Assembly: GCA_016194585.1 (NCBI GenBank)
Contig: JACQBG010000003.1
Coordinates: forward strand, 1-56,398
DNA length: 56,398 nt
Source of the DNA: Gemmatimonadota bacterium
Lineage (GTDB): Bacteria; Gemmatimonadota; Gemmatimonadetes; Gemmatimonadales; Gemmatimonadaceae
Direction of reading: 5' to 3'
A program made the position numbers and the translations under genes. Positions 1 to 34,770 of the stretch are shown here, one piece after another. The first letter of the stretch is position 1; the number at the start of each line of letters is the position of its first letter. Under the pieces are notes generated by a model that made no database searches, was not told the origin of the DNA, and worked only from the letters and a program-made list of their open reading frames with translations.

Positions 1-40
1 GCAGCTTGGCCTGGCGGTCGAGATGATGTGAGTCGGGCAC
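1..40 (-). CDS. Partial CDS, probable Xaa-Pro aminopeptidase N-terminus
   Basis: Only the first 13 codons lie in the window. A GTG at 40-38 begins a frame reading V-P-D-S-H-H-L-D-R-Q-A-K-L, open back to the aroQ stop codon, 21 nt after it. M24 peptidases (Xaa-Pro aminopeptidase) often begin with a similar Arg/Leu-rich helix, and aroQ is commonly followed by pepP; that neighbourhood is the main support. No clear ribosome binding site is visible. The opposite strand could instead hold the end of a convergent gene (Q-L-G-L-A-V-E-M-M then TGA at 29-31), so both gene presence and product are tentative. Confidence 0.3.
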   Translation of the reverse strand, partial: MPDSHHLDRQAKL

Positions 41-61
41 GGCGGGGTGGCGCGCGAGCGC

Positions 62-544
62 CTAGGCGCGGTCGCGGCGGAGCAGGCCGACGAGTCCGCG
101 CAGCGCGAGTTCGTAGCCGTCGGCGCCGAAGCCGCAGAGCGTGGCGCGCGCGGCGGCGGCCAGCATCGAGTGCCGGCGCTCGGGCTCGCGCGCGTGGATG
201 TTGGAGAGGTGCACTTCGGCGAAGGGGAGCCCCACGCCGGTGAGCGCGTCGCGCAGGGCGAGGCTCGTGTGCGTCCACGCCCCCGCGTTCACGAGGGCAC
301 CGTCGGCGCGCTCGCGCAGTTCGGGGGCGACGCCGGGCGCCGAGTGGCGGCCGCCGAGCGCGTGGATCGCGTCGATGAGATCGCCTTCGTGGTTGAACTG
401 CGCGCAGACGACGGTCACGTCGAGCACGCTCGCGACGTCGTGCAGCCGGGCCTCGATCTCGGCGAGAGTCGTCGTGCCGTACACCGCCGGCTCGCGCGTC
501 CCCAGCAGGTTCAGGTTGGGCCCGTTGAGGACGGCGATCCTCAT
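62..544 (-). CDS. aroQ: 3-dehydroquinate dehydratase, type II
   Basis: This is the cytosolic third enzyme of the shikimate pathway, dehydrating 3-dehydroquinate to 3-dehydroshikimate. The 160-residue protein has the type II signatures: GPNLNLLGTREP at the N-terminus with catalytic Tyr22, the QFNHEGDLIDAIH segment (residues 49-61), and SNIHAREPERRHS with catalytic His117. Two small departures from the family are visible: about 13 extra residues after the DLIDAIH helix (roughly 62-76), and NAGA where NPGA is usual. Its start overlaps the stop of the upstream TPR gene by 4 nt, so it is probably translationally coupled to it. Confidence 0.95.
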   Translation of the reverse strand: MRIAVLNGPNLNLLGTREPAVYGTTTLAEIEARLHDVASVLDVTVVCAQFNHEGDLIDAIHALGGRHSAPGVAPELRERADGALVNAGAWTHTSLALRDALTGVGLPFAEVHLSNIHAREPERRHSMLAAAARATLCGFGADGYELALRGLVGLLRRDRA

Positions 545-2889
545 TTGTCCTTCAGCCCTTGCAGCCAGTCGGAGAACTGCGCGATGTCGCCCGCGCTCCC
601 CGGCTCACCGGCCGGTGGCGCGGGAGGCACCGGCGGCTGGTCCTCTTCTGCCGGGGTGAAGAACTGGTCGAAGCGCAACATCTGCGACTGGCGCGTGAAC
701 GGCTTCTGCGTGCCGGTGGGCGTCAGTTGCGGCTTGGAGTCGCGGAACACCGAGTCGAGCGAGAGTTCGCTCGCCGCCGGCTGCGTCGGCTTTCCCTTGA
801 TCACGGGCGCCATCGGCTCGACGGCATCGCCGATCGCGGCGTAGGCCTGCGCGATCCGTTCCTCGTCGTCCGACGGGGCGACGTTGCCGAAGAGCTGGTC
901 GAGCGTGCCCCCCGGGGTGACGTGCGACGCCGGGACGGGGACCGAAACGAGCGGCGTGATGGCCGGCGATATGACCGGCGTCGGCGCACTGGCGCGCGCC
1001 GCCGCCTCCGCGGCCGCCGCGGTCGCGACGGCCGCGGTCGCGACGGAAGTGTCCGCCGGGGGCGCCGCGGCCGGGACGACCGCGATGGAGCCGGTGGGCA
1101 TGGCCGGTCGGACGGCGAAGCTAGCAAAGAACGTGCGTGCCGAAACCCCAGCCGGAGCGACGGGCGCGGCAGGCGCTTCGAGCGCGGCGAGCCGCGCGGC
1201 GAGGGCGACATCGTGCGGACGCTGCGCGACGAGCTGTCGGTAGACGGCGATCGCCTGCGCGGTGAACCCCTGCTTCACGTACAGCTCCGCCATCGTCTCG
1301 GTGACGAACGCGGGACGCGGCGCGGGAACCTCAGGCGCGTGCGCCTCGGCGACCGGTTCGGGGATGGGCGGAGCGAGGTCGATCTCGGCAGGCGGCTCGA
1401 CGACGACGCTCGGCTCGACGGCGGTGCTCGGTGGTTCGGATGCCGCGGGCGGTTCGATAGCGGCCGGCGGCTCGAGCGCGGCCGGTGGCTCGAACGCGAC
1501 CATCGGCTCGGCGGCCGCAGCTGGCTCGAGCACCGCCATCGGTTCGATCCCGGCGAGTGGCTCGATCGCGTCCATCGGTTCGAACGCGGCCGGTGGTTCG
1601 ATGGCGGCAGGCGGCTCGACGGCCGTCGGCATCGCGAGCACCGGAGGCTCCGGCACCTCGATCTCGGAGATCTCGAACAGCGAGTCGCTCGGCCGGAGCC
1701 CAGCGATGGGCGCGACCGTCGCTTCCATCGACTCCGGCGTCTCGAGCCCCTCGAGCGGCGCGACCGACGGCGGCGACGAGAAGTCGACGTCGCCGAAGAG
1801 GAGTTCCTCGGTCGCGTCGTGCGCGCGCGGCTCCGGCGCGGGGGCTGGCGCGGGGGCCTCGGACACGGTCTCGTCGAACGTCGCGCCCGTCGTGGACGCG
1901 GCGGCGGTGATGTCGTCGGCCGTCTCGAGCGGCGGGAGATCCTCCGTCGCGTGGAGCGCGGCGCCCGTGCCGAACGGCGACGTCGTCTCCTCGTAGGGGA
2001 CCGCGGAGGGCATCGCCGTCTCGACGGGAGGCAGGTCCCCTTCCCCGATGTCGATCATCGGGAGGCCGGACGTCGCCCGCGGCTCCGACGGGGGCGGCGT
2101 GTGATCGAACGCCGCGGGCTCCTCGAACGGGAGGGCGGCGTCCATCGGCGCGCCCACGTCCATCGCCGGCGAAAGATCCATCGGCTCGACGTGGTCCATC
2201 GCGCCCTGCACGTCGAGCGGGGCGCCGTGGTCCATCGCGCCGGTGAGGTCGAGCGGGATCGGCGGCGGCGAGGCTGCTGGCGGGGTGGCTGGCGCCGCGA
2301 ACGCGGCGATCCCTTCGTCGAGGTTCTGCGCCGGCTGCCCCGTGAAGTCCATGCCGAGGTCGATGAGTCCGACGGTGGCGCGCGGCTTGGGCGGCTCGAC
2401 GGCCTGCATGGGGATGACTGGAGTCGGCGCCGACGGCGCCACGCGCACGGGCTCGATGGCGATCTCCGGCGTCGCGCGGTTGGCGGGCGGGCCGTGTTCG
2501 AGCTCGTCGAGGAAGGCGATGATCTCTTCGTTGCGCGGGTCGGCGTCGAGGACGCGGCGGTACCACTCGCGCGCCTTGTCGTTCTCGCCGTCGGCGCGGG
2601 CGATGTCGCCCAGATAGCGCAGCGCGATGAGGTTCTCGGGGTCGAGGCCGATCGCGGTCTCGAAGGTGCCGCGCGCCTCCTGATAGCGCCCCGCATCGTA
2701 GAGCGCCTGCCCGTAGACGACGTGCCCGTTCATGTTGCCGGGCTGGTCGGCGAGGTGCTCGGAGCAGAGCTTGATGGCCTCGTCGAGATCGCCGAGCTTG
2801 CGATACTCGTTGGCGAGCGGCGCGAAGAACCGGCGGGGGTTCTCCTCGTAGCGTTTCTTCAGCTCATCGATTCGGGCCGCTGGGCTCAT
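541..2889 (-). CDS. TPR protein with long Pro/Ala/Glu-rich linker
   Basis: This 782-residue protein is built from a TPR block (about residues 5-135, with alternating helices such as FAPLANEYRKLGDLDEAIKL), a roughly 400-residue low-complexity linker, a single further TPR hairpin (about 540-590, FVTETMAELYVKQGFTAQA) and a conserved-looking tail ending FSDWLQGLKDK. No signal peptide or membrane segment is seen, so it is likely a cytosolic scaffold. The linker holds degenerate E-P-P-A-A-(I/F/L) units and MD-GAPMD-type units, plus short acidic motifs (LPMIDIGEGDLP, GLIDLGMD) that recur in the TPR protein at 6628-9105. A good sigma70-type promoter lies upstream. No enzymatic function can be assigned. 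Confidence 0.85.
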   Translation of the reverse strand: MSPAARIDELKKRYEENPRRFFAPLANEYRKLGDLDEAIKLCSEHLADQPGNMNGHVVYGQALYDAGRYQEARGTFETAIGLDPENLIALRYLGDIARADGENDKAREWYRRVLDADPRNEEIIAFLDELEHGPPANRATPEIAIEPVRVAPSAPTPVIPMQAVEPPKPRATVGLIDLGMDFTGQPAQNLDEGIAAFAAPATPPAASPPPIPLDLTGAMDHGAPLDVQGAMDHVEPMDLSPAMDVGAPMDAALPFEEPAAFDHTPPPSEPRATSGLPMIDIGEGDLPPVETAMPSAVPYEETTSPFGTGAALHATEDLPPLETADDITAAASTTGATFDETVSEAPAPAPAPEPRAHDATEELLFGDVDFSSPPSVAPLEGLETPESMEATVAPIAGLRPSDSLFEISEIEVPEPPVLAMPTAVEPPAAIEPPAAFEPMDAIEPLAGIEPMAVLEPAAAAEPMVAFEPPAALEPPAAIEPPAASEPPSTAVEPSVVVEPPAEIDLAPPIPEPVAEAHAPEVPAPRPAFVTETMAELYVKQGFTAQAIAVYRQLVAQRPHDVALAARLAALEAPAAPVAPAGVSARTFFASFAVRPAMPTGSIAVVPAAAPPADTSVATAAVATAAAAEAAARASAPTPVISPAITPLVSVPVPASHVTPGGTLDQLFGNVAPSDDEERIAQAYAAIGDAVEPMAPVIKGKPTQPAASELSLDSVFRDSKPQLTPTGTQKPFTRQSQMLRFDQFFTPAEEDQPPVPPAPPAGEPGSAGDIAQFSDWLQGLKDK
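1381..1630 (-). repeat. Degenerate coding repeat, E-P-P-A-A units
   Basis: Within the linker of the TPR gene, units of five to six codons reading E-P-(P/M)-(A/D)-A-(I/F/L) recur more than ten times with variation. On the plus strand this shows as repeated GGCGGCTCGA and CGGTTCGAT words. It probably forms an extended disordered spacer and could vary in length between strains. Confidence 0.7.
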
Positions 2890-2953
2890 CTGCTATTGAT
2901 GCGGGATGGTCGGGGGAGGCAGTCGCAGCGGCCACCGATGCAAGGACTGTGCG

Positions 2954-2983
2954 ATAATACCACGCGCCGAAGGGCGAAGTCAA
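2954..2983 (-). promoter_or_regulatory. Sigma70-like promoter for the TPR-aroQ operon
   Basis: Reading the minus strand, TTGACT (2983-2978) is followed after 18 nt by TATTAT (2959-2954). Both boxes match the housekeeping consensus at five of six positions. The start codon at 2889 would have a leader of about 58 nt. The divergent ppiD gene begins at 3089. Confidence 0.65.
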
Positions 2984-3002
2984 TCAGAAGTGCCGAAGTC
3001 AC

Positions 3003-3032
3003 TTGCTTTTAGCTACTGCGTGCCGGTAATTT
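3003..3032 (+). promoter_or_regulatory. Weak promoter candidate for ppiD
   Basis: On the plus strand TTGCTT (3003-3008) is followed after 18 nt by TAATTT (3027-3032), about 57 nt before the ppiD GTG. The -10 matches poorly (3/6). It is listed because ppiD is divergent from the preceding gene and must have its own promoter in this 199-bp gap. Confidence 0.3.
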
Positions 3033-3088
3033 TCGAGGCTCTGTCGAACCCCTGAACACCACCGCTTTCTGCAAGGGAGTACCGCCTC

Positions 3089-4915
3089 GTGCTGCATCAG
3101 ATGCGGAGTGCCGCGAAGTACATCTGGATCATCATGGCCGTCGCGTTCATCGGCGGCTTCCTGCTCGCAGAGACTTCGGGACTCCTGGGCCGCTCGGCCG
3201 TGACGACGTCCACGGTCGTTGCCAAGGTCAACGGTACCGAGATCCCTTACCTTACCTGGGCGAACGCCGCCCAGCAGATGGCCCAGCAGCAGGAGCAGCA
3301 GTCCGGGCACGGCCTGACGCTGGACGAACGCCGCCAGGTCGACGACCAGGCGTTCAACCAGCTCGTGGCCGACGTGCTCCTCCAGCAGGAATACGAGAAG
3401 CGCGGCATCCGCGTCACGGATGAGGAGATCATCGAGCAGGCGAAGTACAACCCGCCGCCGCAGTTCCAGCAGGCCGAACAGCTGCAGACCGACGGCCGGT
3501 TCGACCCGGCGAAGTACCAGCGCTTCCTCGCGAGCCCGGCGGCGCGCCAGCAGGGCGTGCTCGCGCAGCTCGAGCAGTTCTATCGCACCGAACTCCCCCG
3601 CCAGAAGCTCATCAACCAGCTCGGCGGTGACGTGTGGGTGTCGGACACCCGCCTCTGGCAGATCTATCAGGACGCGCACGACTCGGCGGCGGTGTCGTTC
3701 GTCGAGTTCCGCCCGGCGGTGACCGACTCCATGAAGAAGGCGGTCACGGACGCCGAGGCGCAGGCGTACTTCGACACGCACAAGAAGGAGTACGACCGGC
3801 CGGGCCGCGCCGTGCTCTCGCTCGTGACGATCCCGCGCCGCCCCACCGCCGCCGACAGCGCGGCGGCGAAGGCGAAGATCGAGGCGCTGCGCGCCGAGAT
3901 CGTGAAGGGGGCGAAGTTCGAGGAAGTCGCCAAGCGCGAGAGCGACGACTCGGTGAGCGGCAAGAACGGCGGCGACCTGGGCAAGGGCCCGAAGGGGCGC
4001 TTCGTGCCGGCGTTCGACGAGGCGGCGTTCAAGCTCAAGCCGGGCGAGCTCTCGGGGCCGGTGCAGACGCAGTTCGGGTACCATCTCATCCGCGTCGACT
4101 CGCGCAACGGCGACACGATCTCGCTGCACCACATCCTCAAGCTGGTGAAGCAGGGCGATTCGGCGGCGACGGTGACCGACCGCAAGGCCGATTCGCTCTC
4201 GAAGATGGCGGCGAGCGCGGACGTGCCGGCGAAGTTCGATGCGGCGGCGAAGGCGCTGAACCTGCTCGTCTCGAAGATCGAGGTGCACGAAGGGGAGCCG
4301 GCGTTCTACGTCGACCGGCAGGTGCCGAGCGCGAGCGCGTGGGCGTTCGGCGGCGCGAAGGTGGGCGAGAGCAGCGACCTGTTCGACGACGACGCGGGTT
4401 ACTATCTGGTGCGTCTCGACTCGCTGCGCGACGGCGGGCCGGCGACGCTCGAGTCGGTGAAGGACGAAGTGAAGACGGCCGTGGCGCGCGCCAAGGCGGT
4501 CGACGCGGCGATGGCGGGCGCGAAAGCGTTCGCGCAGGCGGCCGCGGGCTCGTCGCTCGAGGCCGCGGCGAAGGCCAAGGGCTTCGACGTGAAGGCGCAG
4601 CCGATGTTCGCTCGCTCGAGCGTGGCGCCGGCCCTGGGCGCGCTGAGCGAGGCGATGGGCGCGTCGTTCGCCCTTCCGGTGGGCGTGGTCTCGGCGCCGG
4701 TGAAGACGGAGACGGCGGTGTACGTGCTGCGCGTCGACAAGCGCGTGCAGGCGAACCACGACGAGTGGGAGAAGCAGAAGAACATCCAGCGCGATCAGGT
4801 GACGCGCGGGCTCCGCGAGCAGCGCGTGCGGATGTTCCTCGACGGGCTGCGCCGCTCGGCGAAGATCGTCGACAACCGCAAGGAGATCCAGGCGGCGCAG
4901 CGCCGGCAGTCGTAA
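3089..4915 (+). CDS. ppiD: Membrane-anchored peptidyl-prolyl isomerase (PpiD/SurA type)
   Basis: This is a periplasmic folding factor anchored in the inner membrane and expected to chaperone or isomerise outer-membrane and secreted proteins. The 608-residue protein has one N-terminal transmembrane segment (about 11-28), a SurA-like helical chaperone region (about 45-230), a complete parvulin domain (about 238-340, with GGDLG, F-DEAAFKLKPGELSGPV and FGYHLIRV) and a helical/second rotamase-like C-terminal part. The GTG start at 3089 is preferred because AGGGAG lies 9 nt upstream; an in-frame ATG at 3101 is the alternative. It is the only plus-strand gene in the window, divergent from a TPR gene and convergent with tatA. 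Confidence 0.9.
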   Translation: MLHQMRSAAKYIWIIMAVAFIGGFLLAETSGLLGRSAVTTSTVVAKVNGTEIPYLTWANAAQQMAQQQEQQSGHGLTLDERRQVDDQAFNQLVADVLLQQEYEKRGIRVTDEEIIEQAKYNPPPQFQQAEQLQTDGRFDPAKYQRFLASPAARQQGVLAQLEQFYRTELPRQKLINQLGGDVWVSDTRLWQIYQDAHDSAAVSFVEFRPAVTDSMKKAVTDAEAQAYFDTHKKEYDRPGRAVLSLVTIPRRPTAADSAAAKAKIEALRAEIVKGAKFEEVAKRESDDSVSGKNGGDLGKGPKGRFVPAFDEAAFKLKPGELSGPVQTQFGYHLIRVDSRNGDTISLHHILKLVKQGDSAATVTDRKADSLSKMAASADVPAKFDAAAKALNLLVSKIEVHEGEPAFYVDRQVPSASAWAFGGAKVGESSDLFDDDAGYYLVRLDSLRDGGPATLESVKDEVKTAVARAKAVDAAMAGAKAFAQAAAGSSLEAAAKAKGFDVKAQPMFARSSVAPALGALSEAMGASFALPVGVVSAPVKTETAVYVLRVDKRVQANHDEWEKQKNIQRDQVTRGLREQRVRMFLDGLRRSAKIVDNRKEIQAAQRRQS

Positions 4916-4923
4916 CGGCAACG

Positions 4924-5065
4924 GCTGGCCACGGATCAGACGGATAACGGCCGGAGCTTCACGGATCAAAAACTGGGGGAACGACTTCGCGTTGCTCGCG
5001 CGGTCGTTCCCCCAGTTCAGTTTCGCTTCAGATCGCTGTTCCGATCCGTGAGATCCGTGGCCAGC
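4924..5065. repeat. Composite nested palindrome between ppiD and tatA
   Basis: An outer 14-bp perfect inverted repeat (4924-4937 and 5052-5065, GCTGGCCACGGATC) encloses an inner 15-bp perfect inverted repeat (4971-4985 and 5003-5017, AACTGGGGGAACGAC) with a 17-nt loop. ACGGAT words recur at intervals in both flanks. The inner core is shared with palindromes at 10795-10846 and 34733-34770. Lying between convergent stop codons, it may act as a bidirectional terminator, although there is no long T-tract. Confidence 0.85.
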
Positions 5066-5087
5066 AGTTCCCCGGCCGTGCTTCGAA

Positions 5088-5333
5088 CTACATCAGGCGC
5101 TTCGGCTCCGACGGCGGCGCGCTCTCGGCGGGCGTGGATTCACGGGGCAGCGCATCCTGGCGCGTCGTCGCGGCCGGTTCCTGGATCTCGCGCTGCACGT
5201 CGTTCATGTTCTTCTTGAACTCCTTGATGCCCTTGCCGAAGGAGCCGGCGATCTCGGGGATGCGCTTCGCCCCGAAGAGCAGAAGGATCACCAAGAGGAG
5301 CAACATCATCTCCTGCACACCCATTCCGAACAT
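5088..5333 (-). CDS. tatA: Twin-arginine translocase subunit TatA
   Basis: This is the pore-forming subunit of the Tat system, which exports folded proteins across the inner membrane. The 81-residue protein has a single N-terminal transmembrane helix (about residues 6-20), the FG hinge followed by AKRIPEIAGSFGKGIKEFKK forming the amphipathic helix, and a Pro/Ser-rich acidic tail. The second half shows no TatB-like extension. It ends a minus-strand run behind the DUF4321 gene (9-nt gap). TatC is encoded 14 kb away at 19186-19971, and no tatB is seen, suggesting a TatA-TatC system, or that TatB lies elsewhere. Confidence 0.93.
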   Translation of the reverse strand: MFGMGVQEMMLLLLVILLLFGAKRIPEIAGSFGKGIKEFKKNMNDVQREIQEPAATTRQDALPRESTPAESAPPSEPKRLM

Positions 5334-5342
5334 AACCGCCTC

Positions 5343-5624
5343 CTAGAACAGCGAACGCGCGATCAGGTAGGCCACGAGGACCCCGACGAGGCTCAGCAAC
5401 GACACGTCGAGCGCGATGGGTCCCAGCCCGAACTTCAAGATAACCAGATCCAGTTGCAACTGTCCGATCGACGGGGTCACCGCCGTCGTCAGGAACTCCT
5501 TCACCGCCCCCGACGGGAGCCACTGCCGGGCCGCGGCCTGCATCAGCCCCCCCGACACGAAGCCGACGGCGAGGACTATGGCATGAAACCCCGGACGATG
5601 CTTGGACGATCCCTTGGGTGCCAT
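5343..5624 (-). CDS. Small membrane protein, DUF4321 family
   Basis: This 93-residue protein has two predicted membrane segments (about residues 13-32 and 75-92) separated by an amphipathic stretch, FLTTAVTPSIGQLQLDLVIL, then KFGLGPIALDVSLLSLVGV. That spacing and the closing leucine-rich helix resemble DUF4321, whose function is unknown to me. The ATG at 5624 follows the polyprenyl synthase stop by 2 nt, so the two are co-transcribed. The longer open frame upstream of this ATG is out of frame with polyprenyl synthase and is not used. Confidence 0.75.
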   Translation of the reverse strand: MAPKGSSKHRPGFHAIVLAVGFVSGGLMQAAARQWLPSGAVKEFLTTAVTPSIGQLQLDLVILKFGLGPIALDVSLLSLVGVLVAYLIARSLF

Positions 5625-5626
5625 CG

Positions 5627-6631
5627 TTACGACCGCCGGTCGAGCACGTAGTTGATCGCGTCGGCGAGCGACTGGCGCGCCTCGGAGTCGGGGATGCCGT
5701 CGAGCGCCGCCTCGGCGCGCACCGCGTACTCCTCCCCACGACGGCGCGCGAACTCCAGCCCGCCGCAGTCCGCGACGACCGCCACGACCTCGGCGATCTC
5801 CTGATCGTCGGGGGTGGGGTTCGCGAAGAGCGCCTCGACGCGCGAGCGCTGCCCCGCGCTCATGTGCGGCAGGGCGGCGATGAGCGGCAACGTGACCTTG
5901 TGCTCGCGCAGGTCGGTGCCGCTCGGCTTGCCGGTGACCGACTCCACCTCGGTATAGTCGAGGAGGTCGTCGGCGATCTGGAACATCATGCCGATGCTCT
6001 CGCCGTACGTGCGCATGCGCTCGCGCCAGCGCGGCGCGCCGGCGAGGGCGCCCATCTCGCACGCCGCGCCGAGGAGCGACGCCGTCTTGGCGCGGATGAG
6101 GTTCCAGTAGTCGTCCTCGCCGAAGCCGAGCGCGTCGTAGGTCGCGAGCTGGCGCAGCTCGCCGAGCGTCATCGAGTTCGACGCGTAGGTGAAGGCGCGC
6201 AGCGGCTCGAGGTCCCCCTGCCGCACCAGCTCGGCGATGGACTTCGAGAAGATGTAGTCGCCCATCAGCACGGCGACCTCGTGGCTGAACAGCGCGTTCA
6301 CCGTGGGCTGGCCGCGGCGCAGCACGGAGTGGTCGACCGAGTCGTCGTGGACGACGCTCGTGAGGTGCACGAGCTCGGCGACGGCGGCGAGACTCACGGC
6401 GCGCTCCTCGGGAGCGCCCTCGAGCGAGGCCGCGAGCAGGAGGAGCGTGGGGCGCACCATCTTCCCCTTCATCCCCTGCAGGTGGCCGTTCACCGCCTCG
6501 ATGATCGGCGCCTCGGCCTTCACGATGCGCCACATCTCGCCGGGCACGCGGTCGAGCATGGCGCGCACGGGCGCCTGAATGTCGAGCAGCGCGGCGGCCA
6601 CGGGGAGGTGGAGGCGGGCCTCGAGCGTCAC
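5627..6631 (-). CDS. Polyprenyl diphosphate synthase (long-chain trans-type)
   Basis: This enzyme condenses isopentenyl diphosphate onto allylic primers to make the side chain of menaquinone or ubiquinone. The 334-residue protein shows KGKMVRP (about 55-61), the first aspartate-rich motif DDSVD (96-100) within VVHDDSVDHSVLRRGQPT, and the second, DDLLD (221-225), within FQIADDLLDYTEV, followed by GKPSGTDLREHKVTLP. Small residues before the first motif favour a long product (octaprenyl or heptaprenyl). The GTG start at 6631 overlaps the stop of the TPR gene by 4 nt (GTGA), indicating coupling. Confidence 0.92.
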   Translation of the reverse strand: MTLEARLHLPVAAALLDIQAPVRAMLDRVPGEMWRIVKAEAPIIEAVNGHLQGMKGKMVRPTLLLLAASLEGAPEERAVSLAAVAELVHLTSVVHDDSVDHSVLRRGQPTVNALFSHEVAVLMGDYIFSKSIAELVRQGDLEPLRAFTYASNSMTLGELRQLATYDALGFGEDDYWNLIRAKTASLLGAACEMGALAGAPRWRERMRTYGESIGMMFQIADDLLDYTEVESVTGKPSGTDLREHKVTLPLIAALPHMSAGQRSRVEALFANPTPDDQEIAEVVAVVADCGGLEFARRRGEEYAVRAEAALDGIPDSEARQSLADAINYVLDRRS

Positions 6632-9105
6632 GGCGACTTGTCGACGGCGTTCAAGCGGTCGCCCACGTCGCGGAACTGGATGTCGACCGCGAACACGCGC
6701 TCGTAGAACGCCTTCGCCTCGGCGTGCTTGCCGAGCGACTCGTTGACGTAGCCGAGCAGGTAGAGCACGCCGACGAGCTGCTCGTCGCCGATGCCCGGCT
6801 CGTTGAGGGCGCGCTGCAGGATGGTGACGGCGACGGGGAGCTGCTTCTTCTCGAGGAAGCACTGGCCGAGCGCCTCGAGCGTGCGCACGCGGTTCTGCGA
6901 CCCGCGCAGCGCCTTCTGGAACTCGGCGATCGCCTCGTCGAGCAGCCCCATCTCCTTGAAGGCGACGCCGAGGTCGTAGTGCGACTCGTGGTCCTCCTCC
7001 TCGACGTTCTCGGCGACGCCCTGCTTGAACTTCTTGAGCATGTCGTCGAAGTCGGCCTGCTCGTCGCCGGTGGGCTGCTCCTCGTCGACGACCATGCGCG
7101 TGCTCTTCGGCGCCTCGTCCTCGCGGAGCCAGTCGCCGAGCGAGATGAAGTCGTCGTCGCTCGTCTTGGCGGCGGGGGTGGCGGGCTCCGGCTCGGTGGG
7201 CGCGGCGACCTGCGCCTCGGTGAGCGACGCGGTGTACCGGCGCGTGGGACGCTTCGGCGCCGCCGGCGGTTCGGCGGCCGCGGGCTTCACGTGCTTGGGC
7301 GCCGGACCGAACGCCTCGAGCGCAGCGAGGGCGCGCACGTCGTCGGGCACGATGTCGAGCACGCGCTGGTAGACGACGCGCGCCTTGTCGGCCTGCCCCT
7401 CGCGGAAGAGCGCGTCGGCGAGCGCGAGGTACGCCTCGACGAGGCGCACCTTGTCGTTGGCGCGGAACGCGTACTCGACGCGCTTCTGGTGATGGCGCAC
7501 CGAGCCGGGGTTGAGCCGGATGATCTCGTCGGCGACGTCGCGCGCATGGTCGAGCTCGCCGACCTTCTCGAAGCCGACGAGCGCCGTCTCGAGCTCGCGC
7601 AACCCGCCGTCGCGGTCGCCGTCGTCGAGGAGCGCTTCGGCGTACTGGCGGCGCAGCTCCCAGTTCTCGGGCTCGTCCTCGAGCTTCACGAGCAGCCCGA
7701 TGGAGCTCGAGAGCAGCGACTGCGTGCGCCGCACGGCGGGGGGCGCCTCGATGGACTCGGCGCTCACGACGTCGAACTGTTCCGCTTCGACCGGCGCCGC
7801 CGCTTCGGCTTCGGCCGCGACCGGCGGCGGTTCCTCGCCGAGCTCGATCATCGGCAGCTCGGCGCTCGCGCGTGCCGGCGGCGGCTCGGCCGCGGGGGGC
7901 GCACCCAGGTCGATGAAGTCGAGCGACGCGCCCGCGCTCGGCGGCGCGGCCTCGGAGGTCGGCTCGATCTCGAGCGTCTCGATCGTCTCCATCGTCTCGA
8001 TCTCGAGCGGCGCGACCGTCTCGACCGACTCGGCGGGCTCGGCGGCCTCGGCGGGGGCGCCGAGGTCGAGCAGCGGGATGTCGGCTGCGGACGCCGGCAT
8101 CTCGATGATCGGCAAGTCGCCGCCCAACGCGAGTCCCTTCTCGGAGGGGCGCGGCGCCGTCGGCGCTTCCTTGATGGCGCCGAAGTCGAGCGCGGCGAAC
8201 TCGCTCGGTTCCATCGGCGCCGGCTCCGCAGCCGGTTCGGCGGCGAACGACGTAGGCTCGAGACCGAGCAGCGGCGCGGTCTCGGGCGCCGCGGTGTGCG
8301 CCGTCTCCTCGGGCTGCATGCTCGTCGGCTCGAGCTCGATCATCGGCGCCGCGGGCGGAGGCGGCGGCGGCGCGTGCACTTCGGGCATCGCCTTCGTGCT
8401 GCGCGACAGACGCGACGGGGGCGCGTCGAGGTCGATGAAGACCAGCCCTTCGCTCTTCGCCGACGCGCCGCCGCCCGACGACTTGGGCACCGCGTCTGGG
8501 TCGATCGCCTTCATGCGCTCGACCGTCGCGGCGGCTTCGGCATCGCGCCCGTCGGCGGTGTAGCGGCTGTAGAGGATCTGCAGCTGCTCGAGCGCCTCGG
8601 ATTTCTTCTCGGCCTTCGTCAACTGCTCGGCGAGCATCAGGCGGATGTCGTCCTGATCGGGCACGAGGTCGGCGAATTCCTTGAGCGCGCGGAACGCCTC
8701 CTCGAGCTTCCCGGCCTTCTGCATGCGGTCGGCGTACTCGAGGAAGTTGCTCTTCGCGTCGGCCTTGAATCCCTTGGCGGCGCTGATCTTGCCGAGCTTG
8801 TAGTAGACGGAGCTCCGCCCCGGCGAGGTGCGCAGGATCTTGTTGCAGAGGGCGATGGCGTTGTTGAAGAAGCCCCCCTCGGCGTACAGATCGACGGCGC
8901 GCTCGTAGAGGAGCACACCGTCGGGGACGTTCCCCTGCCGCACGAGCATGTCGCCGACGCGATTGTAGAGCGCGACGTCGATGTTCTCCTCGCCGCCGGC
9001 ATCGTAGGCGTCGAGCACCTCCCGATACGCCGCGATCGCCTTGTCGAGCTGCTTCTTCTGCTCGAAGTCGGCCGCTTTCTTCTTCAGCGCGGTGACGTTG
9101 GCCAT
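6628..9105 (-). CDS. Large TPR protein with acidic linker motifs
   Basis: This is an 825-residue cytosolic-looking protein with no signal peptide. TPR hairpins occupy about residues 1-200 (KKQLDKAIAAYREVLDAY; GKISAAKGFKADAKSNFLEYADRM), a linker runs from about 205 to 475, TPRs resume at about 480-600, and a last TPR block covers about 690-825. The linker repeats a short hydrophobic-acidic motif: VFIDLD, PMIELEP, LPIIEM, IPLLDLG, DFIDLG, LPMIELGE. Similar motifs and a terminal L-x-DWL motif occur in the TPR protein at 541-2889, suggesting related scaffolds. It overlaps polyprenyl synthase by 4 nt. Function unknown. Confidence 0.85.
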   Translation of the reverse strand: MANVTALKKKAADFEQKKQLDKAIAAYREVLDAYDAGGEENIDVALYNRVGDMLVRQGNVPDGVLLYERAVDLYAEGGFFNNAIALCNKILRTSPGRSSVYYKLGKISAAKGFKADAKSNFLEYADRMQKAGKLEEAFRALKEFADLVPDQDDIRLMLAEQLTKAEKKSEALEQLQILYSRYTADGRDAEAAATVERMKAIDPDAVPKSSGGGASAKSEGLVFIDLDAPPSRLSRSTKAMPEVHAPPPPPPAAPMIELEPTSMQPEETAHTAAPETAPLLGLEPTSFAAEPAAEPAPMEPSEFAALDFGAIKEAPTAPRPSEKGLALGGDLPIIEMPASAADIPLLDLGAPAEAAEPAESVETVAPLEIETMETIETLEIEPTSEAAPPSAGASLDFIDLGAPPAAEPPPARASAELPMIELGEEPPPVAAEAEAAAPVEAEQFDVVSAESIEAPPAVRRTQSLLSSSIGLLVKLEDEPENWELRRQYAEALLDDGDRDGGLRELETALVGFEKVGELDHARDVADEIIRLNPGSVRHHQKRVEYAFRANDKVRLVEAYLALADALFREGQADKARVVYQRVLDIVPDDVRALAALEAFGPAPKHVKPAAAEPPAAPKRPTRRYTASLTEAQVAAPTEPEPATPAAKTSDDDFISLGDWLREDEAPKSTRMVVDEEQPTGDEQADFDDMLKKFKQGVAENVEEEDHESHYDLGVAFKEMGLLDEAIAEFQKALRGSQNRVRTLEALGQCFLEKKQLPVAVTILQRALNEPGIGDEQLVGVLYLLGYVNESLGKHAEAKAFYERVFAVDIQFRDVGDRLNAVDKSP

Positions 9106-9243
9106 GGTGAGGGCGGAGGGGCGAGGGGGTGCGGTCGAACGCCGTGCGGATCACGGGCAACAACAGAGAACGGTGCGCGGAGCCGTTCCGGAGCGAGCAG
9201 CGGCCGGGCGCACTTTCGCGGAAGTAAAGCTACCGCGTAAACC

Positions 9244-10494
9244 TCAGCCGTGACAAGCTTTCCCGCGCACCCAACTTCGGGTGCAGCGATGGTCGCCGTA
9301 CCAGTAGGGGAGCTCGCGCAGGTCCCCGATGTCGAACAGGGCGAGGTCGGCGGAGAAGCCGGGGGAGAGCTGGCCGGTCTCCGCGGCGAGCCCGAGGGCG
9401 GCGGCGCCGTTGGCGGTGGCGGCCACGAACGCCTCGGCCACGCTCATGCGCAACTGGCTCACGGCGAGGGTGAGCATGAGCGGGAAGTTGACCGTCGGCG
9501 AGGTGCCCGGATTGAAGTCGGACGCCAATGCGACCGCGGCGCCGGCGGCGATCAGGTCGCGCGCGGGCGCCTGCCGGGGGCGCCCCAGGAAGAGCATCGT
9601 GCCGGGGAGCAGCGTGGCGACGGTGTCGGAGGCGGCGAGCGCCTTGATGCCCGTGTCACTGATGGCGGCGAGGTGGTCGGCGCTCGTGGCGCCGAGTTCG
9701 GCAGCGAGTTCGGCCGCGCCGGAGGGCTCGAGTTCGTCGGCGTGGAGCTTGAGGAGGAGTCCGTGCCGACGGGCGGCGCCGAGGATGCGGCGGGTCTCGT
9801 CGAGGGTGTAGACCCCTGGTTCGCAGAAGATGTCGGCGAAGACGGCCAGTCGCTGCGCGGCGACCTGGGGGATCATCTCGTGTTCGAGTAGGGCGACGTA
9901 CTCCTCGCGTGTGCGCGGGGCGGCGCGGAACTCGAGGGGGATCTCGTGGGCGCCGAGGAAGGTGGGGACGATGCGCATCGGCAGGGCCGTCTGGAGGCGC
10001 TGGATGACGCGGAGCGATTTGAGTTCGTCGTCGAGGGTTAGTCCATAACCACTTTTGATCTCTACGGTGGTTACTCCGTGCGCCGCCAAACGTTGAAGTC
10101 GAGGCAGCGCAAGGAGATAGAGGTCGTCCTCGGTACGGGCGCGCAGGTCCTTCACGGAGCTGTGGATCCCCCCGCCCCGCCGCGCGATCTCCATGTAGCC
10201 GACGCCGGCGGCGCGGAGTTCCTGTTCTTCGAAGCGCGCCTTGCCGAAGATGCCGTGGGTGTGGGAGTCGACGAGTCCCGGGGCGAGCACGCCGAGCGCA
10301 CAGTCGACGCGTTCGGCGGCCGGGAAGCGTCCCTCGAGCTCGGCCTGTCGACCCACGGCCACGATGCGGTCGCCTTCGACGGCGACGGCGCCGTTGGGGA
10401 TGACGCCGGCCTCGTTCATCTCGGGGCCGCGTCGCGCGCGGGCGGGGCCGGCGCAGGTGACGAGCTGGCTCGTGTTGACGAAGAGGAGAGTCAT
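9244..10494 (-). CDS. hutI: Imidazolonepropionase
   Basis: This is the third step of histidine degradation, hydrolysing 4-imidazolone-5-propanoate to N-formimino-L-glutamate. The 416-residue amidohydrolase carries the metal-binding DSHTHGIF motif (about residues 78-85), the substrate-binding GGGIHSSV segment, FLGAHEIP, the metal-binding HADELEPSGAAELAAELGATSADHL and ALASDFNPGTSP. Length matches the family. It is the last gene of the hut group, separated from the preceding gene by about 500 bp of repeats, so it may be transcribed separately. No formimidoylglutamate hydrolase (hutF/hutG) is seen in the window. Confidence 0.95.
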   Translation of the reverse strand: MTLLFVNTSQLVTCAGPARARRGPEMNEAGVIPNGAVAVEGDRIVAVGRQAELEGRFPAAERVDCALGVLAPGLVDSHTHGIFGKARFEEQELRAAGVGYMEIARRGGGIHSSVKDLRARTEDDLYLLALPRLQRLAAHGVTTVEIKSGYGLTLDDELKSLRVIQRLQTALPMRIVPTFLGAHEIPLEFRAAPRTREEYVALLEHEMIPQVAAQRLAVFADIFCEPGVYTLDETRRILGAARRHGLLLKLHADELEPSGAAELAAELGATSADHLAAISDTGIKALAASDTVATLLPGTMLFLGRPRQAPARDLIAAGAAVALASDFNPGTSPTVNFPLMLTLAVSQLRMSVAEAFVAATANGAAALGLAAETGQLSPGFSADLALFDIGDLRELPYWYGDHRCTRSWVRGKACHG

Positions 10495-10540
10495 TGCCGT
10501 CTGAAGTTACGGCGCGGAATGGGCAACTGCGACTGTGGAT

Positions 10541-10575
10541 CTACCACGGAGGACACGGAGGGCACGGAGGACTGC
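10541..10575. repeat. Period-9 ACGGAGGAC array, left arm A
   Basis: This 35-nt stretch starts CTACC and carries three ACGGAGGAC-like nonamers, ending ACTGC. Its reverse complement recurs at 10874-10908 with a single mismatch. A related array in the same orientation follows at about 10737-10768. Confidence 0.9.
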
Positions 10576-10608
10576 CACTGCGTTCTACCGCAGAGGACTG
10601 CAACTGCA

Positions 10609-10646
10609 TTCTACCGCAGAGGACGCGGAGGACGCAGAGGACTGCC
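10609..10646. repeat. Period-9 GCAGAGGAC array, left arm B
   Basis: This 38-nt stretch starts TTCTACC and carries GCAGAGGAC/GCGGAGGAC nonamers. It is a perfect inverted copy of 10947-10984. A shorter sibling starts at 10583. Confidence 0.93.
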
Positions 10647-10690
10647 ACTGCCACTGCCACTGCCACTGCCACTGCCACTGCCACTGCCAC
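10641..10690. repeat. Hexamer microsatellite (ACTGCC)8
   Basis: The hexamer ACTGCC is repeated in perfect tandem for 50 nt (8.3 units) immediately after arm B. Such a tract is prone to slippage and should differ in length between strains. Confidence 0.95.
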
Positions 10691-10704
10691 TTCATACTAC
10701 CACG

Positions 10705-10733
10705 ACTGCCACTGCCACTGCCACTGCCACTGC
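10705..10733. repeat. Second hexamer microsatellite (ACTGCC)n
   Basis: About 4.8 further ACTGCC units, separated from the first tract by a short CATACTACCACG spacer that also precedes the next ACGGAGG array. Confidence 0.9.
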
Positions 10734-10794
10734 ATACTACCACGGAGGTCACGGAGGGCACGGAGGACGGCCACGGCAGGCAACGACAACAAAT

Positions 10795-10846
10795 TGGGGG
10801 AACGACGGCGCGCGCGAGACTTCAGTGCGCAGCCGTCGTTCCCCCA
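10795..10846. repeat. Central hairpin, GGGGGAACGAC family
   Basis: A 15-bp perfect inverted repeat (10795-10809 and 10832-10846, TGGGGGAACGACGGC) with a 22-nt loop. Twelve bases of the arm (TGGGGGAACGAC) match the inner palindrome at 4971-5017, and the loops share a CGCGCGAG word if one element is reversed. Confidence 0.9.
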
Positions 10847-10873
10847 GTATTGCAGTTGTGCCGTGGCCGTTCA

Positions 10874-10908
10874 GCAGTCCTCCGTGCCCTTCGTGTCCTC
10901 CGTGGTAG
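10874..10908. repeat. Right arm A' (inverted copy of 10541-10575)
   Basis: Inverted 35-nt partner of arm A, differing at one position (C to T in the central nonamer). Confidence 0.9.
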
Positions 10909-10946
10909 ACAGCAGTGCGGTCCGGTGCTCCACGGTAGGCAGCGGT

Positions 10947-10984
10947 GGCAGTCCTCTGCGTCCTCCGCGTCCTCTGCGGTAGAA
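10947..10984. repeat. Right arm B' (inverted copy of 10609-10646)
   Basis: Perfect 38-nt inverted partner of arm B. The order A, B, hairpin, A', B' is interleaved and not nested, so the two stems cannot both form as simple hairpins in one strand. Confidence 0.93.
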
Positions 10985-11001
10985 CCTGCCGTCCCTCCGA
11001 C

Positions 11002-11715
11002 CTAGGACTTGGCTCGCGGATCGACCGCCTGCGCGATGCGCAGCGCCTCGGCGGCGCGCGCGTTCACGTCGACCGGACGCGCCGCGCCCTCGCTGAGCAG
11101 CTTCGTCACGAAGCGCTGCCCCTCGGACATGCGCTCGATCTCGATGGCGACGGCCTCCATGCCGCGCTCGAGATTCTCGAGGCGCGCGTTCATCTCGCGG
11201 CTCTCGGGGAGCGCGGCGGGGCGGCCCATGCGACGGAGCAGCCCGCGCGCGAACGCGAGCGACAGCGGCATCAGCACGGCGATCGTGAAGACGATGGAGA
11301 CACCCGTCGTCTGACCCGGCGTGAGTCCGCCGCGCTGAATAGGATCCGACGATGTGCCCGCGATCAGTTGCCCCGGCGCGGACGCGAGCTGTTGCCCCGT
11401 GATGTCGATGTCGCGCTCGAGTCGAGCGATGCGCTCGTCGAGCACGAGGAGGCGCTGTTCGAGGCCGGTGCGTGCGGGCCCAGGCGGCGTGAGGCTGATC
11501 TGCTTCGCGACGTCCTTGCGACGCCCGATGGCGCTGTTGAGCTGAGACGACAGTTCTTCGCGCCGGACGCGGAGCCCTACCACGTCCTGCATGGTCCACG
11601 TCGTGGGCGCTGGAGGGATCGTCGAGGCGGTGCCGAGCGCGCCCGGCGTCGCCGTGCTGCGGGCTCCGGGCGCGACGGGTGTCTGCGGAGTGGCCTGATA
11701 GCGTGACATATCCAT
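11002..11715 (-). CDS. Single-pass membrane coiled-coil protein, unknown
   Basis: I do not recognise this 237-residue protein. A Pro/Thr/Ala-rich N-terminus (1-40) is followed by a predicted coiled coil (about 48-112, with REELSSQLNSAIGRRKDVAKQ and RLLVLDERIARLERDID), one transmembrane segment (about 138-158, VSIVFTIAVLMPLSLAFARGL) and a second helical region (about 170-235, MNARLENLERGMEAVAIEIERM). The ATG at 11715 lies 5 nt after the radical SAM stop; a second ATG at 11709 is possible. It sits inside the hut group, but nothing in the sequence links it to histidine breakdown. Confidence 0.75.
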   Translation of the reverse strand: MDMSRYQATPQTPVAPGARSTATPGALGTASTIPPAPTTWTMQDVVGLRVRREELSSQLNSAIGRRKDVAKQISLTPPGPARTGLEQRLLVLDERIARLERDIDITGQQLASAPGQLIAGTSSDPIQRGGLTPGQTTGVSIVFTIAVLMPLSLAFARGLLRRMGRPAALPESREMNARLENLERGMEAVAIEIERMSEGQRFVTKLLSEGAARPVDVNARAAEALRIAQAVDPRAKS

Positions 11716-11720
11716 CAAAC

Positions 11721-12764
11721 CTACGCCACGAGACCGGGTTCTGTTTCCGGTTCGGGCGCGAGCGGCAGCGGCACGGGGGCGCGCCGCCGCCCGGTGCTCC
11801 CGAAGAGATCCTGGAACCGCGTGATGGTCAGCGGCGCCTGCGCCTCGCCGCGGCAGGCGTAGTAGCACCGGTCGCAGGCGATCGGCTGATAGCCCTGGTA
11901 GGTGCTCCAGTGCTCGTCGCTCGGGAAATCGGGGCAGCGACGCACCCGGCCCACCGGGTCGATGTGGATCGTCGTCTCGCCGGAACGGCACGGCTCCGTG
12001 AGTTCGCCGCGCACCCAGCGCGGGATCTGCGAGACGTACCAGTCGGAGTTGCTGATGACGCCGCGGCGGGCGCGCTTGAAGGCGAGCAGGTCGCGCACGA
12101 GCGCGTCGAGCGCGCCGCCGTGCGCGGCGCCGAGGCGGTGGCCGGCGTTCCCGTTCTTGAAGTCGGTGTAGACGGAGAGGTTCACCCCCGCCCCGACCTC
12201 GTCGGCGAAGCGCACGATCGGCAGCACGCTGTCGAGGTTGTCGTTCTTGATGACGGTGTTGAACCGCACGGTCATGCCGCGTTCGACCATGGCGGGGACG
12301 GTGCGGAGGATCTTCGCGGCGAGGCCGGGGATCTTCCGTGCGTCGTCGTGGCGCGCGTCGAGGTAGTCGAGCGAGACGCAGAACTGCGCGAGCCCCGCGT
12401 CCCAGAGCGATTCGGCGCGCTCGAGGGAGAGCATGCCGCCGTGCGTGATGAGGCTGAGCCACGTGTACGGCACGGCGCGGTCGACTTCGGCGACGATCTC
12501 CTCGAGGTCGCGCCGCAGCAGCGGCTCGCCGCCGGTGAAGGTGATCATCATCGGCGCGAAGTGGCGCGCCGCGTCGGCGAACGACGTGAGCTCGCGCGCC
12601 TTCTCCGAGGGATCGGTCTTCCAGTAGTCGCAAAAGCCGCAGCCGGCGTTGCAGCGCATCGTCACCTCGAAGTGCACGAGCACCGGACGGCGGAGCAGCC
12701 GCAGCTTGGCGTAGCGGAGCGAGAAGGGGACGATGTGCCAGGGGCGGAACTTCTTGCTCAGCAT
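11721..12764 (-). CDS. Radical SAM protein with C-terminal cysteine cluster (SPASM-like)
   Basis: This 347-residue protein should bind a [4Fe-4S] cluster and cleave S-adenosylmethionine: it has C38-x3-C42-x2-C45 (CNAGCGFC), the GGEPLLRRDL SAM-binding motif and a radical SAM barrel through about residue 240. The last third contains further cysteines (CRSGE, RRCPDF, CDRCYYACRGE) that resemble a SPASM or twitch-type auxiliary cluster domain. The substrate is unknown. The ATG overlaps the hutU stop (TGATG), so it is translated with hutU. That context is unusual, because classical histidine degradation has no radical SAM step. Confidence 0.87.
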   Translation of the reverse strand: MLSKKFRPWHIVPFSLRYAKLRLLRRPVLVHFEVTMRCNAGCGFCDYWKTDPSEKARELTSFADAARHFAPMMITFTGGEPLLRRDLEEIVAEVDRAVPYTWLSLITHGGMLSLERAESLWDAGLAQFCVSLDYLDARHDDARKIPGLAAKILRTVPAMVERGMTVRFNTVIKNDNLDSVLPIVRFADEVGAGVNLSVYTDFKNGNAGHRLGAAHGGALDALVRDLLAFKRARRGVISNSDWYVSQIPRWVRGELTEPCRSGETTIHIDPVGRVRRCPDFPSDEHWSTYQGYQPIACDRCYYACRGEAQAPLTITRFQDLFGSTGRRRAPVPLPLAPEPETEPGLVA

Positions 12765-14509
12765 CAGCCCATCGGGATGTTGATGCCCTTCGCCTTCGCC
12801 GTGCGCTGGGCGATCTCGTAGCCGGCGTCGGCGTGGCGCGCGACGCCGATGCCGGGGTCGTTGGTGAGGACGCGCTCGAGGCGCACCCGCATATCTGACG
12901 AGCCGTCGGCGACGATCACCTGCCCAGCGTGCAGCGAGTTGCCGATGCCGACGCCACCGCCGTGATGGAAGCTCACCCACGTCGCGCCGCCGGCGACGTT
13001 GAGCAGCGCATTGAGGATCGCCCAGTCGGCGATGGCGTCGCTGCCGTCCTTCATCCCCTCGGTCTCGCGGAACGGCGAGGCGACGGAGCCGGTGTCGAGA
13101 TGGTCGCGGCCGATGGCGATGGGAGCGCTCACCTTGCCGCTCGCGACGAGGTCGTTGATGGCGACGCCGAACTTCGCGCGGTCGCCCTGCCCGAGCCAGC
13201 AGATGCGCGCCGGGAGTCCCTGGAAGTGGATCTGCTGCTGCGCCTTCTCGATCCAGGTGCGGAGGTGCGTGTCGTGCGGGAAGAGGTCGAGCACGAGGCG
13301 GTCGAGCCGCGCGATGTCGGCGGGATCGCCGCTGAGCGCGGCCCAGCGGAAGGGCCCCTTCCCCTCGCAGAAGAGCGGGCGGATGTACTCGGGGACGAAG
13401 CCGGGGATGTCGAACGCGTCGGCGAGGCCGGCGTCGAAGGCGACGGTGCGGATGTTGTTGCCGTAGTCGAAGGCGATGGCGCCGGCCTTCTGCATGGCGC
13501 GCATGGCGCGCACGTGGGCGACGGCGCTCGCCGTCGACTTCTTCACGTAGCCCTTCGGGTCGGCGGCGCGGAGCGCGGCGGCCTCGGCGAGCGACATCCC
13601 CGCGGGGACGTAGCCGTTGAGCATGTCGTGCGCGCTGGTCTGGTCGGTGACGACGTCGGGCGTGATGCCGCGACGAACCAACTCCGGCAGCACCTCGGCG
13701 GCGTTGCCGACGAGGCCGACGCTGAGCGGGAGCTTCCGCTCCGTCGCCTCGTGGATCCACGCGAGCGCCTCGTCGAGCGACGCGGTCATGCGATCGGTGT
13801 AGCCGGTGTCGAGCCGCTTCTGGATGCGGGCGGGGTCGACCTCGACGCCAAGGATGGCGGCGCCTTGCATGGTGGCGGCGAGGGGCTGCGCGCCCCCCAT
13901 GCCGCCGAGCCCGGCGGTGAGGATGAAGCGGCCGGCGAGCGAGCCGCCGAAGTGCGTGCGGGCGACGGCGCCGAACGTCTCGTACGTGCCCTGCACGATG
14001 CCCTGCGAGCCGATGTAGATCCACGACCCCGCGGTCATCTGGCCGTACATGATGAGGCCGGCCTTCTCGAGTTCGCGGAAGTGGTCCCAGGTGGCCCAGC
14101 GGCCGACGAGGTTCGAGTTGGCGATGAGGACGCGGGGCGCGTGGGCGTGCGTGCGGAATACGGCGACGGGCTTCCCGCTTTGCACGAGCAAGGTCTCGTC
14201 ACCTTCAAGTGCACGGAGCGCCTTCACGATGGCGTCGAAGCACTCCCAGTTGCGCGCGGCCTTGCCGGTGCCGCCGTAGACGACGAGGTCACCCGGGCGC
14301 TCGGCGACTTCGGGGTCGAGGTTGTTCATCAGCATGCGGAGGGCGGCTTCCTGGGGCCAGCCTTTGCAGCTGATCTCCGTGCCGCGCGGGGCGCGGATGG
14401 TGCGAGTGGGAGGAGCTGCTGCTTCTACCGCAGAGGACGCAGAGGACGCAGAGGACTGCACCTCTGGGGGGAGCGTGGATCCGGATGGGGCGCGGGGAGG
14501 GCGGGTCAT
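12764..14509 (-). CDS. hutU: Urocanate hydratase
   Basis: This is the second step of histidine degradation, converting urocanate to 4-imidazolone-5-propanoate with bound NAD. The family match starts at about residue 38 (IRAPRGTE) and includes [61 protein letters not shown] and [18 protein letters not shown]. The ATG at 14509 gives 581 residues. The N-terminal extension partly encoded by a dispersed repeat (14424-14457) reads [13 protein letters not shown]. No start codon exists between the repeat and IRAPRG, so translation must begin within or upstream of it; a GTG just before the repeat is the alternative. The longer frame back to 14758 runs through repeats and is rejected. Confidence 0.93.
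14424..14457. repeat. Period-9 array inside the hutU N-terminal coding region
   Basis: A 34-nt array of GCAGAGGAC units beginning TCTACC. It matches arm B of the 10.6-kb block and is inverted relative to 14617-14650 with one mismatch. It lies in frame within hutU and encodes serine/alanine residues. Confidence 0.92.
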
Positions 14510-14616
14510 GCGGGGTCCCTGGAGTTGCCGAAGTTCTTCTTGCGTATGTGAATGCGTCGTGCTCGTGAATCCGTCGTCTGCGCGACTTCGCTGTCGTCGT
14601 GAATTCGCGCCTTTGT

Positions 14617-14698
14617 AGTCCTCTGCGTCCTCCGCGTCCTCTGCGGTAGACCCTGCAGTCCTCCGTGTCCTCCGTGTCCTCCGTGGTAGAACCCGCAG
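14617..14698. repeat. Paired period-9 arrays upstream of hutU
   Basis: Two adjacent arrays in reverse orientation: GTCCTCTGC units (14617-14650, the inverted partner of 14424-14457) and GTCCTCCGT units (about 14656-14690). They fill most of the 193-bp gap between hutH and hutU. Confidence 0.9.
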
Positions 14699-14702
14699 TT
14701 CT

Positions 14703-34044: not shown

Positions 34045-34740
34045 CTACAGCAACCCCGCCTCGGCGAACGAGATATACCGTCCCCGCCCGACGATCACGT
34101 GGTCGGCCACGGGGATGTCGAGCAGCCGGCCGCCGGCCACGAGCTGGGAGGTGATGGCGCGGTCGTCGGCACTGGGGGTCGGGTCGCCGCTCGGGTGGTT
34201 GTGCACGAGCACGATCGCCGCCGCGCGCTCGGCGATGGCCTCGCGGAACACCTCCCGCGGGTGGACGAGCGAGGAGTTCAGGATGCCGCGGGTGATGGTG
34301 ATGTCGCGCTCGAGCCGGTGCTGGGCGTCGAGTACGGCAACGTGGAACTCCTCCACCGGGAGGTCCTCGAGGCGCGGCGCGAAGGCGGCCCAGACGTCGC
34401 GCGGGGAACGCAGTGGGGCCCCGTCGTCGCGCGCCTCGGTGGCGAGGCGGCGACCCAGCTCGAGCGCCGCGTGGATGGCCACGGCGCGCGCCGCGCCGAG
34501 CCCTGGCACGGCTGAGAGCGCGGCGACGGGCTGCCGTGACAGCCGCCGCAACGAGCCCTCCGAGCGTGCGAGCGCATCGTGGGCGACGGCGAGCGCGGAG
34601 CGGCGGGCGCACCCCGTGCCGATGAGGATGGCGAGCAGTTCGCTCGCGCTCAGCGCTTGGGCGCCGAGCGACTTGAGCCGCTCGCGCGGACGTTCGGCGC
34701 GCGGCAGCTCGCGCAGCTGGATCGAAAGTTCAGGGGGCAC
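34045..34740 (-). CDS. radC: RadC family JAB/MPN protein
   Basis: This 231-residue protein has an N-terminal helix-hairpin-helix-like region (about 20-100, ERPRERLKSLGAQALSASELLAILIGTGC) and a C-terminal JAMM metalloprotease-like domain with HNHPSGDPTPSADD (about 174-187). The cellular role of RadC is unsettled despite its name. The only start codon consistent with the family is GTG at 34740, and it lies inside the arm of a 17-bp hairpin (34733-34770), which could hinder initiation. Confidence 0.92.
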   Translation of the reverse strand: MPPELSIQLRELPRAERPRERLKSLGAQALSASELLAILIGTGCARRSALAVAHDALARSEGSLRRLSRQPVAALSAVPGLGAARAVAIHAALELGRRLATEARDDGAPLRSPRDVWAAFAPRLEDLPVEEFHVAVLDAQHRLERDITITRGILNSSLVHPREVFREAIAERAAAIVLVHNHPSGDPTPSADDRAITSQLVAGGRLLDIPVADHVIVGRGRYISFAEAGLL

Positions 34741-34770
34741 GACCCGACGATACCGTCGGGTCGTGCCCCC
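34733..34770. terminator. 17-bp perfect hairpin overlapping the radC start
   Basis: GGGGGCACGACCCGACG (34733-34749) and its exact complement (34754-34770) enclose the loop ATAC. It could terminate the upstream gene (stop at 34801), although no T-tract follows. The outer part, GGGGGCACGAC...GTCGTGCCCCCAG, is one base pair different from the repeat core at 4971-5017 and 10795-10846. Confidence 0.7.

Follow-up and report, generated by a model that had tools for sequence, protein, structure and literature searches.

Gene-less long hairpins in a Gemmatimonadota genome as probable MITE-like derivatives of GxxExxY elements

Two of three short palindromes reported in a 56,398-nucleotide stretch of Gemmatimonadota DNA (the window) form the tips of near-perfect hairpins of 150-190 nt. 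These long hairpins are probably MITE-like, gene-less derivatives of larger hairpin elements that carry a GxxExxY gene, generated by internal deletion of that gene and presumably moved in trans. This reading is favored because the hairpins share their arms with GxxExxY elements, because their tips correspond to the ends of the gene, because a deletion intermediate has been found in a sister species, and because hairpins and gene co-occur across the genus.

Perfect stems of 15, 15, and 17 bp were confirmed at 4971-5017, 10795-10846, and 34733-34770. The sequence-only reading had treated all three palindromes as one dispersed, structured family and had suggested that core and flanking words might belong to one composite element. 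A genome scan, RNA folds, and a comparison of arms support this for the first two copies. The flanking words with a period of 9 are real and constitute the outer arms of the much longer hairpins at 4917-5072 (inverted-repeat score 21 against a control maximum of 14.5; RNA fold z = -8.7) and 10728-10917 (score 38.5; z = -18.5). The latter lies between two minus-strand genes and adjoins an imidazolonepropionase-like amidohydrolase gene identified by Pfam. The elements of the window are as follows.

4917-5072, no strand: hairpin element 1, whole long hairpin, subfamily A (ACGGAT words); inverted-repeat scan, fold, and similar copies in the source genome
4928-4967, plus strand: left outer arm of element 1, GCCACGGATCAGACGGAT...CACGGATC words; arm comparison
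4974-5014, no strand: core hairpin of element 1, TGGGGGAACGAC-N17-GTCGTTCCCCCA; halves match the opening and closing codons in one GxxExxY clade
5041-5063, minus strand: right outer arm of element 1, CGATCCGTGAGATCCGTGGCC words; arm comparison
10728-10917, no strand: hairpin element 2, long hairpin, subfamily C (ACGGAGG words); inverted-repeat scan and fold
10795-10846, no strand: core hairpin, element 2; its 11-nt core arms are 28 nt apart, where 17 is usual
10540-10984, no strand: nested outer word arrays (ACGGAGG / ACGCAGAGG) around element 2; self matches at 10540-10575, 10609-10651, and 10942-10984
14431-14643, no strand: third word inverted repeat with CAGAGGACGCAGAGGACGC arms and a 153-nt spacer, lacking the core; inverted-repeat scan

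The last of these is a probable degenerate relative; it is located near the start of a urocanase gene. Just outside element 2, at 10641-10735, the window also contains a tandem array of the hexamer (GCCACT)n. Searches of the window against Rfam and for tRNA or tmRNA genes gave no match.

The palindrome at 34733-34770 was rejected as a family member: it has no word arms, and its flanks are not complementary to the arms of any copy. It is found where radC begins (34045-34740, Pfam RadC), between two genes of the minus strand, and at the orthologous place congeners have hairpins with unrelated stems, e.g., CACGCGCCG..CGGCGCGTG in G008 and GAGGGCATGCGCCG..CGGTGCATGCCCTC in G010. It is most simply a local hairpin of conserved position whose likeness to the core is a coincidence. 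Since the compensated base change from which selection for pairing had been argued was taken from this copy, that argument fails. Compensated changes nevertheless exist among genuine members: in other species they affect core positions 8-9, and at position 9 both partners differ, the source copies having A-T and G012 and G010 having G-C. In several species (L192-L200) a hairpin occupies the same place at the start of radC although the stems have nothing in common in sequence, a good example of structure conserved in position alone.

The source genome (3.34 Mb in 50 contigs, 98% complete) was scanned with the pattern GGGGGNACGAC-N2-32-GTCGTNCCCCC, which returned 11 hairpins, whereas the reversed control pattern returned none. 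Looser searches added core copies at C3:19065, C18:1018, and C7:70451, and copies with a ATGGGAAC or AAGGGGAAC tip were found at C27:36565, C22:7108, and C3:103885. The family thus comprises at least 16 members in this genome, a count obtained by searching for patterns and from 400 kb of sampled sequence, which includes copies with one imperfect arm or a ATGGGAAC-type tip and excludes the 34733 copy. The core TGGGGGAACGAC..GTCGTTCCCCCA is nearly invariant, with a gap of usually exactly 17 nt between its 11-nt arms, and all copies that were folded, apart from that at 34733, form the tips of long hairpins. The outer arms, by contrast, differ in their words from copy to copy. Nearly the whole element is stem. 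The arms are arrays of 9-10 nt words falling into three subfamilies: A (ACGGATCGC; the 4971 copy), B (CAGATCTTCG / CGCGGATGTA), and C (ACGGAGGAC; the 10795 copy). Arms are interchangeable inside subfamily A, whereas there is no complementarity between subfamilies; the same core therefore occurs with different arms. In subfamily A, own arms fit no better than those of other copies (permutation P 0.15), and arms inside a subfamily are therefore simply homologous copies; the same test gave P 0.018 in subfamily B. In each of five pairs of orthologous elements with different words, a small sample, complementarity within an element was at least equal to the cross fit.

The gene-bearing relative was identified through PF13366 (GxxExxY), a family that is multicopy across the genus and has three genes in the source genome. 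The gene of the full-length element is a member of this family, scoring 124.7 bits against the TIGR04256 model (cut-off 35; E 2e-36). The source copy at C15:30798 carries subfamily A arms (GCCACGGATGTTCACGGATGACCGCCGGATC), and that at C1:34290 carries subfamily B arms (ACAACGCCGCAGATTGGCGCGGATACAACAGGC). Across the source and sister genomes, inverted word arms flank GxxExxY ORFs above the 99th percentile of random control positions at 15 of 20 loci, the remaining five not exceeding that level.

The likeness extends from the arms to the tip. In one GxxExxY clade, the first codons (ATG ACT GGG GGA ACT ACT) and the last (TTG TCG TCC CCC CAA) correspond to the two core halves. The ORF starts ATGACTGGGGGAACTACTCG (L103), ATGACTGAGGGAACGACGCG (L106), and ATGACTGCGGGAACTGCGCG (L104) and the ORF end TTGTCGTCCCCCCA (L106) match the core in a fixed register at 11-13 of 14 positions, the matches spanning only 11-14 bases per end and being confined to this clade. 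A hairpin tip in G029, GGGGGAACTGCGCGTGG, repeats the L104 ORF start. Profiles of the hairpin halves, trained solely on gene-less copies of the source genome, match the ends of the GxxExxY elements L092 (E 7e-9) and L187 (E 3e-5 and 5e-5); among the controls, the sole match below E 0.5 was a real core hairpin. L187, located in a sister species via its coding remnants, is an internally deleted gene that has kept both ends and its arms. That a gene was deleted, rather than captured by a hairpin, is suggested mainly by this locus. Exact MTxGTT core ends occur in none of the three source-genome GxxExxY copies; the direct parent is therefore missing or lost. In G012, G002, and G007, a row of gene-less hairpins stands beside a GxxExxY gene, and at L241 and L242 (G012 and G002) tandem arrays of approximately 118-nt hairpin units lie directly downstream of it.

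GxxExxY proteins are widely annotated, and we know of no role for them. The predicted model (pLDDT 88) adopts a PD-(D/E)XK fold in which the invariant D77, E87, and K89 constitute the D...ExK catalytic residues; a sequence search for a solved structure of the protein gave no match. The best structural matches, weak ones outside the nuclease group being left aside, are the Cas4-like nuclease SSO0001 (4ic1, Z 10) and 3ijm (Z 8.5), and archaeal Hjc resolvases match with Z 6-7 and a Foldseek probability of 0.99. Since a common fold does not imply a common function, the resemblance of the predicted model to Hjc is a lead only.

A pathway compatible with these features can be proposed. In the full element, inverted arms made of 9-10 nt words would enclose one small gene for a GxxExxY PD-(D/E)XK nuclease. 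Loss of the interior of the gene would spare both arms along with a few codons at either end, and because the gene ends themselves are near-complementary, they would close into a perfect GGGGGAACGAC/GTCGTTCCCCC tip. Further copies would then arise by mobilization in trans, with the core or a cruciform serving as recognition site. The moving enzyme may be the GxxExxY nuclease itself, a protein whose fold matches include Holliday-junction resolvases. Once in place, the hairpins may act as a two-way barrier at RNA 3′-ends, in the slot that an ordinary terminator occupies in sister species.

The genomic position of the hairpins is relevant to this last step and to an alternative. Of 13 family sites, eight are flanked by convergent genes and none by divergent genes, against a baseline of 11 of 93 convergent pairs (12%; P 2.8e-5) drawn from a sample of neighboring gene pairs, with genes called approximately by codon-position G+C. 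The hairpins are found 52-112 nt behind stop codons. In eight sister species, the 4971 slot is occupied by an ordinary intrinsic terminator, e.g., GAAGGGGAGCGACC..GGTCGCTCCCCTTCTCTCTT, or a short hairpin of similar kind, and in G015 (L152) by a long AACTGTCAGA-type word hairpin with a canonical terminator and T-run as its tip. The L152 hairpin gives the impression of a terminator around which word arms grew. These placements would also be expected if the hairpins were ordinary bidirectional terminators of convergent genes, lengthened by slippage and template switching, with the core a favored terminator sequence and the likeness to GxxExxY genes coincidental. An intrinsic terminator is a G+C-rich stem followed by a U-tract. 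However, neither window copy is among the terminator-like sites called in positions 1-15000, and neither has a U-tract. Moreover, an exact core at more than 10 unrelated loci requires copying or gene conversion, and the arms common to GxxExxY genes, the profile matches, the deletion intermediate, and the absence of hairpins where the gene is absent would be left unexplained. We therefore regard the terminator explanation as unlikely.

The proposed origin from GxxExxY elements would also bear on how slots vary between species. The 10795 slot in sister species either lacks a long hairpin or has one with other words; in G010 it contains a PF05635 element. Slots were compared in about ten species, but their intergenic sequences have diverged too far for junctions to be located, and neither a target-site duplication nor a clean empty site could be made out. 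When the search pattern was restricted to the arms and blind to the core, such hairpins were recovered from G007, G010, and G012 as well as from other genera (G018, G029, G032, and G033), and many of these again have TGGGGGAAC tips. At the level of the genus, hairpins are present in seven of 11 genomes bearing GxxExxY genes and in none of seven without the gene (Fisher P 0.010, shared ancestry being ignored).

MITEs are elements of 100-400 bp with terminal inverted repeats. The hairpins, 150-190 nt in length with inverted arms along their whole length, have this form; they also share their ends with a gene-bearing element, namely the arms and gene-end codons of GxxExxY elements, with L187 as an intermediate. 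They thus resemble bacterial MITEs such as ERIC and NEMIS in being short, dispersed, and gene-less, in having ends in common with a longer gene-bearing relative, and in the existence of a deletion intermediate. Several differences exist. The longer relative has a gene for a GxxExxY PD-(D/E)XK protein rather than for a recognized transposase, almost the whole element is stem with words that change between copies, and no target duplication was found in intergenic DNA too diverged for junctions to be placed. Judged by anatomy, the hairpins would work like a MITE whose long partner has no known transposase.

Dispersed intergenic palindromes with occasional tandem clusters are likewise typical of REP/REPIN elements moved by RAYT, a Y1 tyrosine transposase (PMC3116915, PMC3733652), for which a search had been suggested. 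In contrast to such systems, the hairpin elements are several times longer (150-190 nt, not 20-40; PMC3733652) and have a common tip matching gene ends. A REP/REPIN unit is a 20-40 bp palindrome with a constant unpaired GTAG/CGTC tag; inspection of the copies revealed no constant unpaired tetranucleotide beside the core. The 98%-complete source genome contains no Y1_Tnp (PF01797) match, whereas five of 14 control genomes do, and the associated gene is GxxExxY/PDDEXK_3 instead. Because no Y1 transposase was found there, the hairpins are not a REP/RAYT system, and we give movement by RAYT hardly any credence.

Inverted word arms around GxxExxY genes are not confined to this phylum, being found also on Chloroflexi, Pseudomonadaceae, and Prevotella contigs (e.g., AAGACATAAAGACATAAA in Prevotella). 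On the Prevotella contigs L184-L186, long inverted arrays of AAGACATAAAGACAT words surround the gene, the same architecture in an AT-rich lineage. It is tempting, if speculative, to suppose that GxxExxY genes define widespread, transposase-less mobile hairpin elements in Gemmatimonadota, Chloroflexota, Pseudomonadota, and Bacteroidota, in which a Holliday-junction-resolvase-like nuclease acts on its own cruciform and shed gene-less hairpins occupy intergenic terminator slots, their arms staying complementary while the words drift. Hairpins of tandem words, ACGGAGGAC arrays among them, are met repeatedly in environmental genomes and have so far been unexplained. The derivation from GxxExxY elements would link this common kind of repeat with a common, equally unexplained protein family and offers a testable identity for both. 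If correct, it would explain why different hairpins occupy the same gene-end slots in different species, and it would provide a system for asking by what means a long palindrome keeps its arms matched. Our literature search, whose reach did not extend to most subscription journals or to bioRxiv, found no account of hairpins surrounding GxxExxY genes or of gene-less derivatives, and a search for the arm words themselves returned nothing relevant.

A further comparison concerns 23S rRNA intervening sequences with an S23/four-helix-bundle ORF, in which a small ORF lies inside a long hairpin and both gene-less and gene-bearing forms exist (PMC4990558). The hairpin elements are alike in these respects, yet they differ in residing in intergenic DNA and, for the core hairpins, in their ORF family. 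By analogy with intervening sequences carrying PF05635, the hairpins might have spread by a retro-type mechanism, being copied via RNA into hairpin tips. PF05635 genes are indeed multicopy in the genus and stand in similar word hairpins (14 of 20 above the 99% control), and at 10495-11010, where the source genome has a gene-less hairpin, the same slot in G010 is taken by a PF05635 element. No reverse transcriptase (PF00078) match was found in the source genome, however, and we consider this route improbable. Shared ends with PF05635 elements were rejected, the hairpin-half profiles having no match in 17 PF05635 control loci. The PF05635 elements form a parallel class in the same genomes, with an architecture in common with rRNA intervening sequences (PMC4990558). 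In the source genome and its congeners, the genes for this 23S rRNA IVP four-helix-bundle protein (L053, L054, and L055-L071) lie inside long inverted repeats built from different short words (AGTCTGGAGTCT, GTTAACGGTTAACC, and GGGGGAGGGAAA).
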